From the IMG/VR virus record IMGVR_UViG_3300046501_000082, positions 1 through 64,000 of that record: a DNA stretch of 64,000 nt; one strand, written 5' to 3'. The notes beneath the pieces are model-generated. The model did not search any database. It had not been told where the DNA came from and saw nothing but the letters and a program-made list of their open reading frames with translations. Made by a program: the position numbers and the translations under genes. Of this stretch, positions 1-48,773 are shown piece by piece (positions within the stretch are counted from its first letter, which is position 1; every line of letters starts with the position of its first letter). Source of the stretch: a virus.

Positions 1-27
1 AATTAACGACTCTTATTTAAGATGATG
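1..27 (+). ncRNA. Probable 3' end of a group I intron (cut by the window edge)
   Basis: The first 27 bases closely resemble, from memory, the 3' terminus of the T4 td-type group I intron: an ATTAACGAC block, then CTTAT, then a short A-rich stretch ending in ATG. A terminal G followed by an in-frame coding stretch is expected of such introns. Only the last bases are visible, so the catalytic core cannot be checked. The exact 3' splice site could be G24 or G27. It supports reading 25-141 as a downstream exon rather than an independent gene. Confidence 0.4.
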
Positions 28-141
28 CAGGTTGATGCAACAAGTGATGCTTTCATTACACTCGCACAGAAAATTATGATTCCAAACTTCACCTCCGGTT
101 TAATCTCAGCAAACCTGACTAGACCAAACATCTTCACCTAA
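25..141 (+). CDS. C-terminal exon of a split gene, probably terminase large subunit (partial)
   Basis: A frame closed by a stop at position 4-6 stays open from the ATG codons at 22-27 to the TAA at 139, giving about 38 residues beginning QVDATSDAFITLAQKI. There is no ribosome-binding site in front, so it is unlikely to be a free gene. The D-A-x-x-D-A-F pattern could be the third acidic motif of a terminase nuclease domain, and the position directly upstream of the portal gene is where a large terminase gene usually ends. The terminase identity is inference from context and a short motif. Confidence 0.4.
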   Translation: MQVDATSDAFITLAQKIMIPNFTSGLISANLTRPNIFT

Positions 142-5950: not shown

Positions 5951-5983
5951 TTTAGATCAAATTAAATTAAAGGAGATCTAAAA
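5950..5983 (+). promoter_or_regulatory. RBS-occluding hairpin at the LAGLIDADG gene start
   Basis: TTTTAGATC at 5950 is a perfect 9-base inverted match to GATCTAAAA at 5975, whose last A is the first base of the ATG. The AAAGGAG site lies in the loop and at the stem base. Folding would hide the ribosome-binding site, as known for several T4 homing genes in read-through transcripts. Confidence 0.6.
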
Positions 5984-6951
5984 TGCAAGAATTAATAAAA
6001 CCCCACTACTTTGAACAGGTATTGGAGATGTTTGACCAAGGTCTTTTACAGCAAGAAATTGCTGATATTATTGGTATTAAAAAACAAGCTCTAGCTTTTC
6101 AAATGAAGAAGTTTGGATTCTCTTTCAAACGAGCTTCCTATCGTATGCTTGATTCTCAAATCGATGAAGCTGTTAGGATGTATTCAGAAGGAATGTCCGC
6201 ACCAGAAATCGGCACTGCTCTCGGAGTCTCTAAGTCCAATGTAAACTACGCACTTAATTTGCGTGGTGTTGCTATGAAGACAAAGAAAGAGATTAAGTTC
6301 TACAAAAAGTATTCTATAAATGAAGATGCTTTTTTGGATTTAACTACAGAACAGTCTGCTTATTTCTATGGTTGGATTTTAACTGATGGCTGGGTAAGTA
6401 AGGCAAACGTCTCTATTGAGTTATCAAGAAAAGATGAGGAGCTTCTGTTAAACTTCAAATCTTATATGGGAAGTTCAAATAAGATTTACCAAAGAAGTAA
6501 AGTAGTGAAGGTTACTGGCAATGTATCCGAGATGAGTTCTTTTGGTTTTTCCCATGAACCAATCTTGAATAGACTGAAAGAGTTGGGGCTTAAAGAAAGA
6601 AAATCTTTAAAAGAAGTTTGTCCAGATGTATTCAAATACAATCGACATTTTTGGCGAGGTGTGGTTGAGGGTGACGGACATATTGCCAAATCGGATAGCT
6701 ATTCAGTAGAAATTTGTGGTAGTGAAGAGCTATGCAGTGCTTTTGAAAATTATTGTAAATCCCTTTGCCCTGAAGCCCATGTATACAGAGCAATGAACGG
6801 TAAGATGTTTGTTGCTAAAATTGGTCGGAAAAGTTCAACCAATATAATCCTTAACGAATTGTATAGAGATTGCACTTTAAAGCTCTCTAGAAAATATAAT
6901 GTTTATTTAGAGAGGTATTGTGATGGCATTGACTTTGATAGAGCAAGTTAG
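5983..6951 (+). CDS. LAGLIDADG homing endonuclease with N-terminal helix-turn-helix repeats
   Basis: The 322-residue protein has two LAGLIDADG helices, SAYFYGWILTDGW (about 126-137, acidic Asp135) and HFWRGVVEGDGHI (about 222-234, Asp231), so a single chain forms the pseudo-dimer that makes a staggered cut. Residues 1-95 hold two HTH-like segments (QEIADIIGIKKQALAFQM and APEIGTALGVSKSNVNYAL). It is free-standing between the head fibre and a head-tail connector gene. Its 3' end overlaps the start of the next gene by about 30 bases and supplies that gene's RBS. An RBS-occluding hairpin precedes it. Confidence 0.88.
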   Translation: MQELIKPHYFEQVLEMFDQGLLQQEIADIIGIKKQALAFQMKKFGFSFKRASYRMLDSQIDEAVRMYSEGMSAPEIGTALGVSKSNVNYALNLRGVAMKTKKEIKFYKKYSINEDAFLDLTTEQSAYFYGWILTDGWVSKANVSIELSRKDEELLLNFKSYMGSSNKIYQRSKVVKVTGNVSEMSSFGFSHEPILNRLKELGLKERKSLKEVCPDVFKYNRHFWRGVVEGDGHIAKSDSYSVEICGSEELCSAFENYCKSLCPEAHVYRAMNGKMFVAKIGRKSSTNIILNELYRDCTLKLSRKYNVYLERYCDGIDFDRAS

Positions 6952-17341: not shown

Positions 17342-18070
17342 ATGAACGAGATGTTAGATACATTCCAAGGCGTGGTAGATGGAAGGACTAAGAATGAGCT
17401 GTACAACACTTTCCAACTCATGATGCGGCGGTGCTACGCGAAGGAATATGAATCCTATAAAAACTATGGTGCTAAAGGAGTTAAAGTAAGCTCCGATTGG
17501 ATGGGTATTGATGGTTTTTGGAACTTTGTCAGAGATATGTCTCCGAGACCACAAGGATTGACTCTGGATAGAATTGATCCAACTGGGGACTACTGCAAAG
17601 AAAATTGCAGATGGGAAACTGACCATATGCAAGCGAATAACACTAGACTAGAAAATATTAACAATACCTCTGGAGTTGCGGGTGTTAGTTGGTGTGTAAG
17701 AGACCTAGTGTATATTGTTCAAATTTCTCTAAACGGCACAAGAACACGAATAGGCGTCTTTTCTGAAGAAAACTTAAACTTAGCTGAGGAAGTTTATCTT
17801 CAAGCCAAAGAAATGAAGTTACTAGGGTACAGTGACCCTGAAATTTATGATAAATTTGTTATCAGTAAGCGACCCAAGGGTAGTAAGGGTATCGTAAGAA
17901 GGAATAAAACTTCCAAGTACTGGGGTGTTTCCTATATAAAGAAAGCAAACAATTGGCAAGCCTATACAACTAAATATTTAGGGGTGAGAAAAACAGAGGA
18001 GGAAGCTTACAGATTAGTCCAAGACTGGTTATCATCCCAAGAGGAACTACAGATTGGACCTACTCCTTGA
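17342..18070 (+). CDS. HNH homing endonuclease with AP2-like DNA-binding domains
   Basis: The 242-residue protein has the MMRRCYAKEYESYKNYGAKG start and LTLDRIDPTGDYCKENCRW nuclease core typical of phage HNH homing enzymes. Two AP2-like segments follow: NTSGVAGVSWCVRDLVYIVQ, and then TSKYWGVSYIKKANNWQAY. It sits between spike and gp25-like baseplate genes, outside any essential unit. Its 3' end overlaps the next gene by 17 bases and contains that gene's GAGG site. Confidence 0.85.
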   Translation: MNEMLDTFQGVVDGRTKNELYNTFQLMMRRCYAKEYESYKNYGAKGVKVSSDWMGIDGFWNFVRDMSPRPQGLTLDRIDPTGDYCKENCRWETDHMQANNTRLENINNTSGVAGVSWCVRDLVYIVQISLNGTRTRIGVFSEENLNLAEEVYLQAKEMKLLGYSDPEIYDKFVISKRPKGSKGIVRRNKTSKYWGVSYIKKANNWQAYTTKYLGVRKTEEEAYRLVQDWLSSQEELQIGPTP

Positions 18071-28709: not shown

Positions 28710-29366
28710 TTATAGAATCGTCTCTATTTGGTCATCATAATCTTTTTGAATCATATCCGCCCTATTATTAAGGGCAGCTACCAATTTATCGTGAGGAATA
28801 ATTTCTTCTATCGAAGAAGTCTCTCTTAAAGTCTTTATTTTTGCCAGTTGCCACACCCTATGTGCTTTAAATGGATCATTGAAAAGCCCTAAATATAAAG
28901 TCTTACCTAGATGCTTATGATTCACAACTAAAGGGTTAGGCCCATCATTCTGCTTAGTTACCCCTAATGGGTAATCTCCACGTCTATTTATGCTCCTTAA
29001 AAACATGTTATTCACGTAGGCGGGCACAAAAATACAAGTCTCCTTGTTGTAGGATTTGTTCTGAGGTACTAATATATCCTTATCTAAGGACCAAAACTTA
29101 TTTTTATACTTGAGAGTGAAGCCGTACTCTGTATTACAAAACTCTGCAAAATCCTGGTAGTCTAAAAAATCATTAGACACATCTTGGTAGGTCTTGTTTT
29201 TATTCCAACAAGCTGTTCCGGGCGTAGTCCTCTGTTTCAAGTCCCTCCAAACCATACTAGATCTTGTTATATGACAATTATAAGGCTCCGGATAAAAAGT
29301 AGAAACCCACAAACCTTGTTCGTTTCTGTGCTCAGGCACATACTTAGTCCAAATAATTTTCTTCAT
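28710..29366 (-). CDS. HNH-type homing endonuclease-like protein
   Basis: A 218-residue protein with SLDKDILVPQNKSYNKETC followed by IFVPAYVNN. This is a pattern of phage HNH homing enzymes, in which the LDKD and N-x-x-Y-S/N-x-E-T-C segments carry the nuclease core. A PLGVTKQNDGP segment resembles the AP2-like DNA-binding start. It is a free-standing gene at the end of the middle arm, directly against the terminator. Confidence 0.7.
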   Translation of the reverse strand: MKKIIWTKYVPEHRNEQGLWVSTFYPEPYNCHITRSSMVWRDLKQRTTPGTACWNKNKTYQDVSNDFLDYQDFAEFCNTEYGFTLKYKNKFWSLDKDILVPQNKSYNKETCIFVPAYVNNMFLRSINRRGDYPLGVTKQNDGPNPLVVNHKHLGKTLYLGLFNDPFKAHRVWQLAKIKTLRETSSIEEIIPHDKLVAALNNRADMIQKDYDDQIETIL

Positions 29367-42475: not shown

Positions 42476-42724
42476 TTAGCTATACGCTTCCTGAATCTGT
42501 TGAAGCTTATTTAACTCTTCAACTTTCTCTGCAAGGTTGTCTTGCTTCGCCTTAGCAGCTGCTGCTTTGATAATGTCTGCAACTTCTTTCTTATTGAATC
42601 CGTCTGAGCAGTATTCTTCGTGGTAACTAAACTCAGTTTTAAGTTCACCCAAGTCTTCTTTGAGAACCAAAATTTCTTGGTTCAGTTGATAAGCTCGGTT
42701 AAACAGGTTCTGACGTTCTTTCAT
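42476..42724 (-). CDS. Unknown coiled-coil protein, 82 residues
   Basis: Helical, heptad-rich (LNQEILVLKEDLGELKTEF) with a Lys/Ala-rich middle (ADIIKAAAAKAKQDN). The RBS GGAG lies in the 3' end of the upstream HNH gene, and start and stop overlap (ATGA). Confidence 0.6.
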   Translation of the reverse strand: MKERQNLFNRAYQLNQEILVLKEDLGELKTEFSYHEEYCSDGFNKKEVADIIKAAAAKAKQDNLAEKVEELNKLQQIQEAYS

Positions 42725-43254
42725 GATATATTCTCCATTTCTTTTAATTTGTCGGGATCACGTCCCAGTTCATTTAAGCGTTTGTGTTCTTTACCGTGAC
42801 AGCTTGTACAAAGCCAAATAACATCAAGCCAGTGTTCAGGTAAATAAGACCAATGGTGTCCTTGGATTTTCTTTTCAGAAGTTCCGCAGTGCTCACAAGC
42901 TTCAGGTCTTATTAATGTACCGTTCCTTCTGGCAACCGTCATTGCGTCCCTTGCTTTATACTTTTGAGGGTTATTCTTCCTATCTTCTTTGGAATAATCA
43001 GACCTCTTCTTTCTAAACTCCGGGTCAGAGGAATACTTTTGATTCCGTTGCTCAATAGTTCTCTTTCTTCTGTCTACTTCGTTGGGTCTGTTTCTATCGT
43101 AATTATTATAATGCTCTTTCTTATCTTTTCGGTTCTGTTTAACATCAATCTTGGTGCATTCTTTACATCTGTTTGAGTAGCCACCAAGATTTACCGGATG
43201 TTTATAGAATTCCGTAACCTCTTTTTCAACACCACATCTATAACATTTCTTCAT
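42721..43254 (-). CDS. HNH homing endonuclease with N-terminal zinc finger
   Basis: The 177-residue protein starts MKKCYRCGVEKEVTEFYKH, a C-x-x-C finger typical of phage HNH genes. A basic linker and the core CEHCGTSEKKIQGHHWSYLP through WLCTSCHGKEHKRL follow. It is inserted between SSB and a small coiled-coil gene. SSB carries an odd C-terminal extension next to this insertion. Confidence 0.8.
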   Translation of the reverse strand: MKKCYRCGVEKEVTEFYKHPVNLGGYSNRCKECTKIDVKQNRKDKKEHYNNYDRNRPNEVDRRKRTIEQRNQKYSSDPEFRKKRSDYSKEDRKNNPQKYKARDAMTVARRNGTLIRPEACEHCGTSEKKIQGHHWSYLPEHWLDVIWLCTSCHGKEHKRLNELGRDPDKLKEMENIS

Positions 43255-43295
43255 CACAACCAACCTTTAAAATGGACTTCCTTGTCCAATACATC

Positions 43296-45448: not shown

Positions 45449-45709
45449 TTAATGGCAGTTATCCCATCCACTACCAATCACATAACCTGACGTCAATTCT
45501 ACGTTAAGTTTGTAATACTGTCCAGCTTCTTTTACAGATTCCGCTGCCAATTCCCCAGCACGGCACCATGAACGAAAGAAACGTCCGTCTTTTGCATGAC
45601 CAACATCACTCCAGATACGGCCTTCTTCACAGAAATCTTTTGCTTCTTTCTCTGTATCAAACATCTTAAACTTAACTAGGCTTCTTGTCAACTCTAATTG
45701 CGCTTCATC
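45449..45709 (-). CDS. DNA polymerase, exon 2 (motif C and C terminus)
   Basis: These 86 codons start DEAQLELTRSLVKF and end SGWDNCH, matching the T7 gp5 pattern from H-DE-IQV to its NWAICH end. The first two residues are the catalytic Asp and Glu of motif C (Asp727, Glu728 of the joined protein). An ATG overlaps the junction at 45712 but is not the true start: without exon 1 the piece has no polymerase function. Confidence 0.9.
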   Translation of the reverse strand, partial: DEAQLELTRSLVKFKMFDTEKEAKDFCEEGRIWSDVGHAKDGRFFRSWCRAGELAAESVKEAGQYYKLNVELTSGYVIGSGWDNCH

Positions 45710-45946
45710 CATTCAGTTATTGAGTTCGCTAAACTCACTCCGCTTTCACGGAGAATCAGACTATATCACAAACTCTTTCGAGTTTCCTGCCGCTTCGAGT
45801 GCGCTTGCACCCTACTCCCTTCCGGGATAGTCGTTACACGTTCCTATTTCTAGGCTTCGCTCGGGATTGGCATGGCTTTCGCTTTAGCTTTCCCCGAATT
45901 CAACAGGTTATTCAATGCACTTCACAATGCAAGGCCACAATTATTT
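45710..45946 (-). ncRNA. Group I self-splicing intron (T4 td-like, about 237 nt) in the DNA polymerase gene
   Basis: Read on the minus strand, exon 1 ends in T of the His codon and the intron ends in G, as group I rules require. P1 can form between exon CCAU and intron GUGG with a terminal U-G pair. The core shows CGGGGAAAGC and CCAATCCCGAGC (P4-P5 region), then TAACGACTATCCC and GATATAGTCTGATTC, the P7/P3 signature shared with T4 td. A hairpin-rich 3' part ends ATAACTGAATG. Joining CAT to GATGAAGCG restores His-Asp-Glu. No ORF lies inside; reading on without splicing hits TAA five bases in. Confidence 0.93.
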
Positions 45947-48124
45947 ATGGTACGCAATCATTTGTTGGCAATACTTTTTACTTTTCCAATCGTCTTTAAA
46001 GAAATCTACCGCGAACCCTTCGGCTTTAAGCTTACGATCATGAATAACCATCGCTCGCTTTGCACAAATTACACCTGCGCTTTGAAATCCACTGTTAATC
46101 ACATTGCCTTTTGAACGAATAGGAAGTTTACGTTTATCAATACCTACAAGAAACTTCTTCTGTCCTGTTGTTTCCCAGTATTGCTGCATACGTTCTTTGA
46201 GTTCTTTGAGCGGATTAGCCAAAGTCCAGAACTCATCAAAAATAATCTGTGCCGTTTCTAGGTCACAACCAACAATTTTAGCTACCCGTGCAACTTGGGC
46301 GTTGTAACTACATCCGTACTTCACAGATTTAGCGCTATTTCGTGGGAAATCACGGCCAATAATCTCTGTAATACGGCGGGCCAATACAGAGTGACAATCA
46401 TTAGGCTTTTCAGCAGTCAGACTTACACCGTACTCCGGGCCACCTTTATAACGGTACACATAATGACTTTCAATCTTAGCCTCAAGGCTGTCAAAATCAT
46501 AACCAAGTTGTACATAGCCTTCACCAACACCAAACAAACTCCTCATTTCCTCCCCGTAAAGGGATGTATTTCGTGGAATGTTCGCCACTAAACGATGCTT
46601 GAATCTGCTGGTCCCAGCGCCGCAAGTATCTGCTGGTGTTGGAATACGTCCATCCTCACGAACGTTCGGCATAAAACCACTTTCATGCTCTTCGTCATTT
46701 TCCTCTGGATCATACCCGCCCCCCAGAATACTATTACGGCGGTGGCTGTAAGTCAAGAAGTCAGCAAGCTTTCTAGCGTGTGGAAAGCTACTTTCTAGTG
46801 CAATAAGACCGGGGCAGATCTCTTTCTCTTGTCCTACCGTCAGCGTGGGGTTGGTTAACACTTTAAAGCTTTTAGCGCACCCTTTTGCCAACAACTTAGC
46901 CTTAATGTTGTTTTTATTAAGGTTCAAGTGCTCTAGACGATATTTGCAGAAAGGACTTGCTAGTGTCTGTTCAACATATCGTTCTACTGCTGCTTCGAAC
47001 TTCTCCTGTGTCAGACGGTTCTTCTTGGCATCACAGGTAAGATCACGCTCCTTCCAAGCGGAAGGGTTCCAGTGAAACTTAGACACTAGCCATTCTTTAA
47101 TGTGGGTTGTGTCTTTCAAAGTTGATGGTACTTCAGTGAGCAATGGTACAGCAGGCATTGGTAGTGGATACTCTTTACCAAAGATTGTTGCTACGTTATC
47201 TTCACTAATTGTTCCTTCGTGTTTAGCTACAAACTTCTTAATGTTTTCATTAAGTTCGCCAGACTTCTTAAACTGTTTTTCCGAAGGTGTGTAGAAATCC
47301 ATGCGCGTCTTAGCCAATGGTTTTGGTGGCAAGACAGGTTCAACTTCACTGCGCAAGGCCTCAAGTTTGATGTCAAGATCACGAACCAGTTCAATTGCAC
47401 GTTCTGTCTTAAAGTCAAATCCTCGGTGCTCTTGGCGAGTGATAATCTCCGCAACAGACTTTTCCAGACTGATAGCGTCTAACCAATCCCAATCACCTTT
47501 CTCAGCCTCCAGCATCTTGTAAACTTTTGTGTTCGCCAAGACATCTATGATGCAATAAAATAACATGTCCGCTGCAAAATGTTTGAAACGAATAGATTCG
47601 TGAATGTGTTTACGAAAAGAATACTTGCGCAAGCCAGCTTTCTCAGACAAAGAGTCCAAGCTATGTCCGCCCAACCTATCCGGGTTAAGCGCTTTGCTTA
47701 TTACAAGTGTATCTTCAAATAGAACAGGTTTACCGCACCAAGTATCTTGTTCAACGGTGAAGTCCATATCTTCTTCAATCTTACCAACCATCAAGTCAAA
47801 ATTGATCTGGTTGTGAGCCACCACTTTATGCAGTGGGTTGTTTAGGACGTAAGCCTTAAACTCAGCAATAGATCGCTTTTCAAACTCAAGAGGTTGATAG
47901 TTTTCAAGAAGATATGTTTGCCCCTCAATTACCTCTTCGTAACGGCGACCATCAAGAATATATTCAGGACCGTCATAAAAGGCAATAATCTTACCAGTTT
48001 GATGTTCTTCCACAACAGTACAATGAGTCTTAAAAGTCTCTTTCAGCTTGAATGGGCTGCTTGTGTAATCGATAGCCTCTTGATTCAAAAGACCTGTTGT
48101 TTCCCGGTCCCAAGTAATATCCAA
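45947..48124 (-). CDS. DNA polymerase (T7 gp5-like family A), exon 1, TTG start
   Basis: Exon 1 gives 726 residues; with exon 2 the enzyme has 812. Proofreading acids are in WDRETTGLL (Asp6, Glu8), AHNQINFD and YCIIDVLAN. Motif A is DFDSLEAKIESHY (Asp543) and motif B is RNSAKSVKYGCSYN (Arg595, Lys599). Motif C begins with His726, where exon 1 stops. TTG 48124 was chosen: AAAGGAG lies seven bases upstream and the protein then starts MDITWDRE; the longer ORF runs back into the HNH gene. It is the replicative polymerase of the phage. Confidence 0.9.
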
Positions 48125-48128
48125 TTTC

Positions 48129-48773
48129 TTACTCCTTTGTTCTTCCAAAATACTTAATCTCGCCAGCAGCTCTGGCATCACAGGCTTCTTCGAAGGTGTC
48201 AAAATAGCCTAAGTTAATATCTTTTCTTTCAACCCCAATACGGGCACGCCACTTCTGTTGTTTTTCAACCCATGCCACACCTGTTCTGCCAGACTTGTTG
48301 TTTTTAAAGATACCTTTATTAAAGCTTTGAACTCTCCAAGTATCCCATACGCAGTTTTCTCTAGAGTAACCAAGTTTAGGATCTTCTCGTTCTAAAGTCA
48401 AACCCTCTTTATACGAGTCACCCATATCCCTCAAGAAGTTTTCAAACTGACGCCAGTCCTCTTGATCCAAACCAGCGCCCTTTCCTCCGTACTTATCCCA
48501 ATTGGGGTCGTTTGGATTGGTGCAGCGTGAAACCATTGAACCCCATACAGCATAAATCTTAGATTTCCACATGCCATGTGTTCTATAAGAGCGTTCTGCT
48601 CTAAGGCAACCACACGATTGAGAATTTCCGTCTTTAATTTGATCCGCCCTAACTACTTTTTCTTTACCACAGTCGCACAAACAATTCCAGTAGGGCCTAC
48701 CATTTTTAGATTCAGCAAAACTTATGATCGTCCATCTGTTATATTTATTACCTGTCAAGTCTTCGTGAGCCAT
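48129..48773 (-). CDS. HNH homing endonuclease with AP2-like domain, next to the intron-bearing gene
   Basis: The 214-residue protein has the zinc-ribbon start NCLCDCGKEKVVRADQI and QSCGCLRAER, the HNH core YGGKGAGLDQEDWRQFE then LTLEREDPKLGYSRENC, and an AP2-like end (SGRTGVAWVEKQQKWRARI). It sits directly upstream of the polymerase gene and carries the polymerase RBS in its final codons. It may mobilise the nearby endonuclease-free intron. Confidence 0.87.
   Translation of the reverse strand: MAHEDLTGNKYNRWTIISFAESKNGRPYWNCLCDCGKEKVVRADQIKDGNSQSCGCLRAERSYRTHGMWKSKIYAVWGSMVSRCTNPNDPNWDKYGGKGAGLDQEDWRQFENFLRDMGDSYKEGLTLEREDPKLGYSRENCVWDTWRVQSFNKGIFKNNKSGRTGVAWVEKQQKWRARIGVERKDINLGYFDTFEEACDARAAGEIKYFGRTKE

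Follow-up and report, generated by a model that had tools for sequence, protein, structure and literature searches.

An ORF-less group I intron at motif C of a phage family A DNA polymerase gene

The stretch of DNA analysed here, referred to as the window, comprises the first 64,000 nucleotides of the IMG/VR virus record IMGVR_UViG_3300046501_000082. The full record has 92,874 bases and, because its two ends repeat each other exactly over 127 bases (window 1-127 and L005 12748-12874), it very likely represents a complete genome closed on itself. On the minus strand of the window, a DNA polymerase gene is divided into two exons by an insert of 237 nt (Table 1). Exon 1 starts with a TTG codon, preceded at close range by AAAGGAG, and, if nothing is excised, its frame ends ...QMIAYHK at a stop two codons inside the insert. 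Excision of 45946-45710 brings the exons together in frame as ...QQMIAYH^DEAQLE... (a caret marks the junction here and below), giving a protein of 812 amino acids. The apparently separate 'orphan' ORF at 45712-45449 takes the final three bases of the intron as its ATG and is in frame with exon 2.

Table 1. Features of the interrupted polymerase gene and its intron, in window positions.
Feature	Position	Strand	Basis or remark
HNH-family endonuclease gene, free-standing, adjoining the polymerase on its upstream side	48129..48773	-	PHROG 374, E 2e-70
DNA polymerase exon 1	48124..45947	-	Residues 1-726, exonuclease motif through His of motif C
Group I intron, subgroup IA2, no ORF, final base G	45710..45946 (237 nt)	-	Rfam RF00028, covariation, empty sites
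P1	45935..45950	-	UUGUGG pairs with CCAU of the exon and AA of the intron; the 5' splice site is marked by a U-G wobble
P2 hairpin	45917..45930	-	Structure model and covariation
P3, 5' strand	45902..45907	-	Partner 45791-45786
P4 plus P5 region between the P4 strands	45861..45897	-	Scored for P4 only
P6 hairpin, 12 nt	45843..45854	-	P6 region is the place of the HNH ORF in ORF-bearing relatives
P7, 5' strand GACUAU, core of the guanosine site	45827..45832	-	Partner 45764-45759
P7.1 and P7.2 hairpins, mark of subgroup IA2	45797..45826	-	Structure model and covariation
P3, 3' strand	45786..45791	-	Structure model and covariation
P8 hairpin	45770..45785	-	Structure model and covariation
P7, 3' strand AUAGUC	45759..45764	-	Structure model and covariation
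P9 and P9.1 hairpins	45722..45753	-	Structure model and covariation
DNA polymerase exon 2	45709..45449 (including stop)	-	Residues 727-812, begins with Asp-Glu of motif C

Judged by its sequence, the interrupted gene is a family A DNA polymerase whose motif C is completed by exon 2. Exon 1 matched the Pfam family DNA_pol_A (PF00476) with 40 bits, and the joined protein matched T7 DNA polymerase (E 1e-14), the HDE of motif C falling on the HDE of the T7 enzyme, as an earlier, sequence-only reading of this DNA had anticipated for an alignment of the 812-residue product with T7 gp5. The residues around the junction (Q720, Q721, I723, A724, Y725, H726, D727, E728, Q730 and E732) are invariant in 12 intronless relatives. 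No second family A polymerase gene, such as the separate complete copy that the sequence-only reading had considered, was found in the 92.9-kb phage record.

The insert was matched by the Rfam group I intron model RF00028 (Intron_gpI) at 45957-45737 with 79 bits (E 2e-18; model positions 1-253, end to end), compared with a gathering cut-off of 50 bits, and this was the sole Rfam match within the window. The proposal that the insert is a group I intron was thereby borne out, and the individual features named in its favour, namely U at the 5' splice site, a terminal G and a P1 of CCAU with GUGG, are all present. Each of the three forward frames of the insert contains four to seven stops, and no ORF was found in any of them. 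We assign the intron to subgroup IA2 because P7.1 and P7.2 are present between P7 and the 3' strand of P3.

The predicted fold was scored on an alignment of 11 introns at the same site, that of the window and ten others, for helices P1, P2, P3, P4, P6, P7, P7.1, P7.2, P8, P9 and P9.1. Across the 57 pairs of the model, 96.6% of 621 cells were paired, a percentage favoured by the fact that the model was drawn from the window's own sequence, which does not explain the number of double-sided changes: these occurred at 37 of the 57 pairs, compared with 17.7 in shuffled alignments. The covariation score was 0.521, against 0.163 after shuffling and at most 0.097 when the partners were slid. P3, which in the model forms the usual group I pseudoknot with P7, was paired throughout (100%), with double changes at four of its six pairs; P7.2 likewise was 100% paired and doubly changed at four of six pairs, P7.1 was 96.7% paired, and all five pairs of P2 showed double changes. 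P7 was 95.5% paired and, being nearly invariant, is neutral as evidence of covariation. P1 is identical in all 11 introns, and P10 is weak, with about three pairs judged by eye.

Both borders of the intron are fixed, because close relatives carry the empty site. Five of them (L015, L016, L018, L019 and L020), with polymerases approximately 82-96% identical to that of the window, read TA(C/T)CAC^GA(T/C)GAGGC without a break; the form with a CAC codon is TACCAC^GATGAGGC, whereas the window reads TACCAT^intron^GATGAAGC at the same junction. Moving the intron by one base in either direction destroys His726. The empty sites thus agree to the base with the placement at 45710-45946, between His and Asp-Glu of motif C, that had been put forward from the sequence alone. 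In a comparison set of 94 distinct polymerases belonging to the window's polymerase group, 14 have this junction occupied by an intron and the remaining 80 are empty. Exon 1 ends in TAC CAT in all 14 of the former, whereas CAC is found in 66 of the 80 empty genes; the association of CAT or CAC with intron state gave p = 8e-9 with omission of the single gene that had been found solely through the CAT pattern, a value too small by an unknown factor since the counts are of genes and not of independent gains. Within the closest group alone, CAT occurs in four of four intron genes and none of five empty ones (p 0.008). Both codons match the demand of the guide pairing, and neither alters the protein sequence; an ending in CAT is what the U·G pairing at the splice site calls for.

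We consider it very probable that this 237-nt, ORF-less group IA2 intron is self-splicing, interrupts motif C of the one family A polymerase found in the phage, with His726 on one side and Asp727 on the other, and spreads by recombination. Splicing in vivo and the route of transfer are what we infer from the sequences. The transcribed intron would fold, and an external guanosine would attack just past the U that ends the CAU codon, held in the U-G pair of P1; CAU would then be joined to GAU at the terminal G of the intron, restoring both the frame and the catalytic Asp-Glu. RNA that escaped splicing would give a polymerase ending one residue past His726, lacking the carboxylates of motif C. 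Spread among related phages would occur by recombination at the conserved site, and any homing in the window's phage would depend on an endonuclease provided in trans; in some relatives the same intron encodes an HNH endonuclease.

The insert might instead be the remnant of an intron that has decayed and lost the capacity to splice, the polymerase gene being either dead or at work as two separate pieces. In favour of this, the intron lacks an ORF, and no endonuclease like those of its relatives was seen in the window's genome; however, the scored helices, the catalytic core among them, are intact and have been kept so by compensatory change, both exons are open and conserved, the record yielded no further family A polymerase, and similar ORF-less introns occupy the same site in at least nine other contigs. 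We regard a remnant as improbable. Handling at the level of translation or protein, by an intein, by ribosomal bypass or by assembly of a split polymerase from two proteins, appears more improbable still. Inteins and intein-like inserts do occur elsewhere in this polymerase group (one is annotated in PaulScherrer, and inserts resembling in-frame ones follow KYGC in L045, L047 and L049), and an ATG is available from which exon 2 could be read separately, but the intron supplies it with its final three bases, and stops in every forward frame together with a full, covarying group I fold are difficult to reconcile with an insert removed from protein. That the whole arrangement is an artefact of assembly we find scarcely credible: although the sequence is a metagenome contig, independent contigs of other samples have a like insert at the same base, and so do the sequenced isolates SPA01 and KLEP7.

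The intron has a history that differs from that of its gene. Compared with L014, L017 and L021, the window diverges by 3.0-4.2% in the intron and by 12.9-18.2% in the exons; compared with L062 and L064, by 16-17% in the intron and 37-38% in the exons (17% and 37% for L062); and compared with L025, L045 and L051, by 36-44% in the intron and 32-36% in the exons (44% and 34% for L025). Constraint on the ribozyme could partly account for the low divergence, 3-5%, of the introns of the four closest genes. The exon tree groups L062 with L064 and L076, whereas the intron tree places L062 and L064 beside the window, and each data set rejects the grouping of the other (AU p 0.008 and 0.002). The alignments tested were short, of 237 and 726 columns, the end branches were long, and the groups were named after the trees had been seen. 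Because the two trees conflict, transfer of the intron between phages is probable, and the sequences suggest that it probably moves between related phages.

Concerning the means of such movement, an HNH ORF lies inside the intron in four of the 14 intron-bearing genes (SPA01, KLEP7, L065 and L157), while the other ten, including that of the window, lack an ORF. PHROG 59, the endonuclease family of the SPA01 and KLEP7 introns, was not found in the window's phage record; in L045 and L076 a PHROG 59 HNH gene directly follows the polymerase. An HNH gene lies upstream of the polymerase in four of 13 intron genes and eight of 78 empty ones (p 0.07), and downstream in two of 13 and four of 75 (p 0.21). 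Homing by an endonuclease in trans may occur, but these figures give no significant tie between the presence of the intron and an HNH gene on either side of the polymerase, and a neighbouring HNH gene was not adopted as the means of collaborative homing; for the upstream gene there are also cases to the contrary, as L015, with an exon 1 96% identical, has the HNH gene without the intron, and L014 has the intron without that gene. That the ORF-less motif C introns form a lineage spread by trans homing, within a collaborative homing system at this site, is a tentative idea that we consider unlikely; were it so, the trans-acting endonuclease might come from the PHROG 59 HNH genes that follow the polymerase in L045 and L076, or from the one that precedes it in the window, which is of a different family.

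The window itself holds no fewer than six putative genes for free-standing homing endonucleases, of several types (42721-43263, 48129-48773, 17342-18070, 28710-29366, 1836-2663 and 5983-6951). The gene at 42721-43263 matches PHROG 2340, a family that occurs inside polymerase introns of Bastillevirinae (PMC11878797). In the ORF-bearing introns at L006 3617-4409 and L009 4615-5454, a promoter-like TTGAC(A/T) and a -10-like stretch were noticed by eye in the P5 loop ahead of the HNH ORF; both are missing, again by eye, from the ORF-less introns.

Other introns and inserts were seen in this genome and in the polymerase group. In the same phage, the gene for the large subunit of the terminase is also interrupted by two group I introns, scoring 86 and 74 bits, at L005 11003-11270 and 12460-12725 (record 91003-91270 and 92460-92725); by eye, the first lies in FGGAA^GSGKS (Walker A) and the second in KDD^QVDATSDAF (nuclease motif), both of them catalytic sites. 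Duplication of the polymerase intron from a copy elsewhere in the genome was rejected, as the terminase introns share just core stretches with it. In L045 (7692-8641, 9022-9936) one polymerase gene is interrupted twice, after KYGC by an insert resembling an intein and at motif C by a group I intron, and an HNH gene adjoins its exon 2 on the 3' side; L051 (4759-6340) combines an HNH-ORF insert at motif A with an ORF-less intron at motif C. The region of motif A is a second hot spot of the polymerase group, with inserts at L010 3223-3957 and L007 3252-3650: Justusliebigvirus PaulScherrer has an annotated intein there and Klebsiella phage KP2025 a group I intron, at positions about eight residues apart.

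The annotation of the gene is corrected by these results: it would otherwise be called a truncated polymerase and an orphan protein, and the pieces of the SPA01 gene are labelled 'hypothetical proteins'. The comparative set is of more use than the single case of the window. Intron-bearing and empty polymerases offer a clean natural comparison, in which the last codons of exon 1 follow the splice-site pairing and the history of the intron differs from that of the gene, and the presence of ORF-less, ORF-bearing and empty alleles in one polymerase group would permit a direct test of the mobility of introns lacking an endonuclease.

Both the kind of intron and its site have precedents. Motif C of Escherichia coli DNA polymerase I is His881-Asp882-Glu883, which makes site 881 the His^Asp junction of the window intron. 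Phage polymerase introns are known at sites 674, 676 and 881 in E. coli numbering, and the position of those of PhiI and W31, at 881, is taken from the same source (PMC3428280); the K1F gene 5 junction was read directly from the sequence as AWVH^DEL. The introns of PhiI, W31 and K1F resemble that of the window in lying between His and Asp of motif C, but they carry an HNH endonuclease ORF, which is usual in such introns although splicing does not depend on it, and interrupt T7-type polymerases, whereas the window intron has no ORF and lies in another branch of the phage family A polymerases. Also at this junction are the introns of Pseudomonas phage SPA01 (Pakpunavirus) and Pseudaeromonas phage KLEP7, whose polymerases belong to the window's group (approximately 51% identity), and of Escherichia phage HeinrichReichert (Vequintavirus; junction IYYH^DEYQ), for which the submitters annotated a two-piece polymerase with the endonuclease inside. 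All three share the codon junction and a closely similar 5' end (AAATAA, then TTGTGG), and all three differ in having an HNH ORF in the P6 region (PHROG 59 for SPA01 and KLEP7). The suggestion that this target recurs in related phages is therefore well founded, with introns at the same junction in K1F, HeinrichReichert, SPA01 and KLEP7. In L063, L072 and L077, which have a more distant polymerase (approximately 41% identity), exon 1 ends QMMHYH, and next to it come an intron 5' end like that of the others and an HNH ORF, so that the same-site intron reaches beyond the window's polymerase group. Other IMG/VR matches to the 5' pattern (L066, L067, L069, L071, L074 and L075) were dismissed as chance, having no polymerase context and, in those tested, no group I match.

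The family A polymerases of phages SPO1, SP82, Bastille and Pf-WMP3 are likewise interrupted by group I introns, and the Pf-WMP3 intron is also of subgroup IA2 (PMC3428280), but these introns lie at site 674 rather than 881 and bear ORFs; in the Bastillevirinae, most introns sit in DNA polymerase genes (PMC11878797). The proposed resemblance to the T4 td intron extends no further than the P7.1-P8 part of the core (approximately 75% over 82 nt); td is another gene and another site and its intron carries I-TevI, and the nearest relatives of the window intron are the same-site introns of other phage polymerases. Novelty is lowered because the site recurs in phages and is already known, and the window intron is a real and well-preserved ORF-less case of a known kind of intron at a known site.
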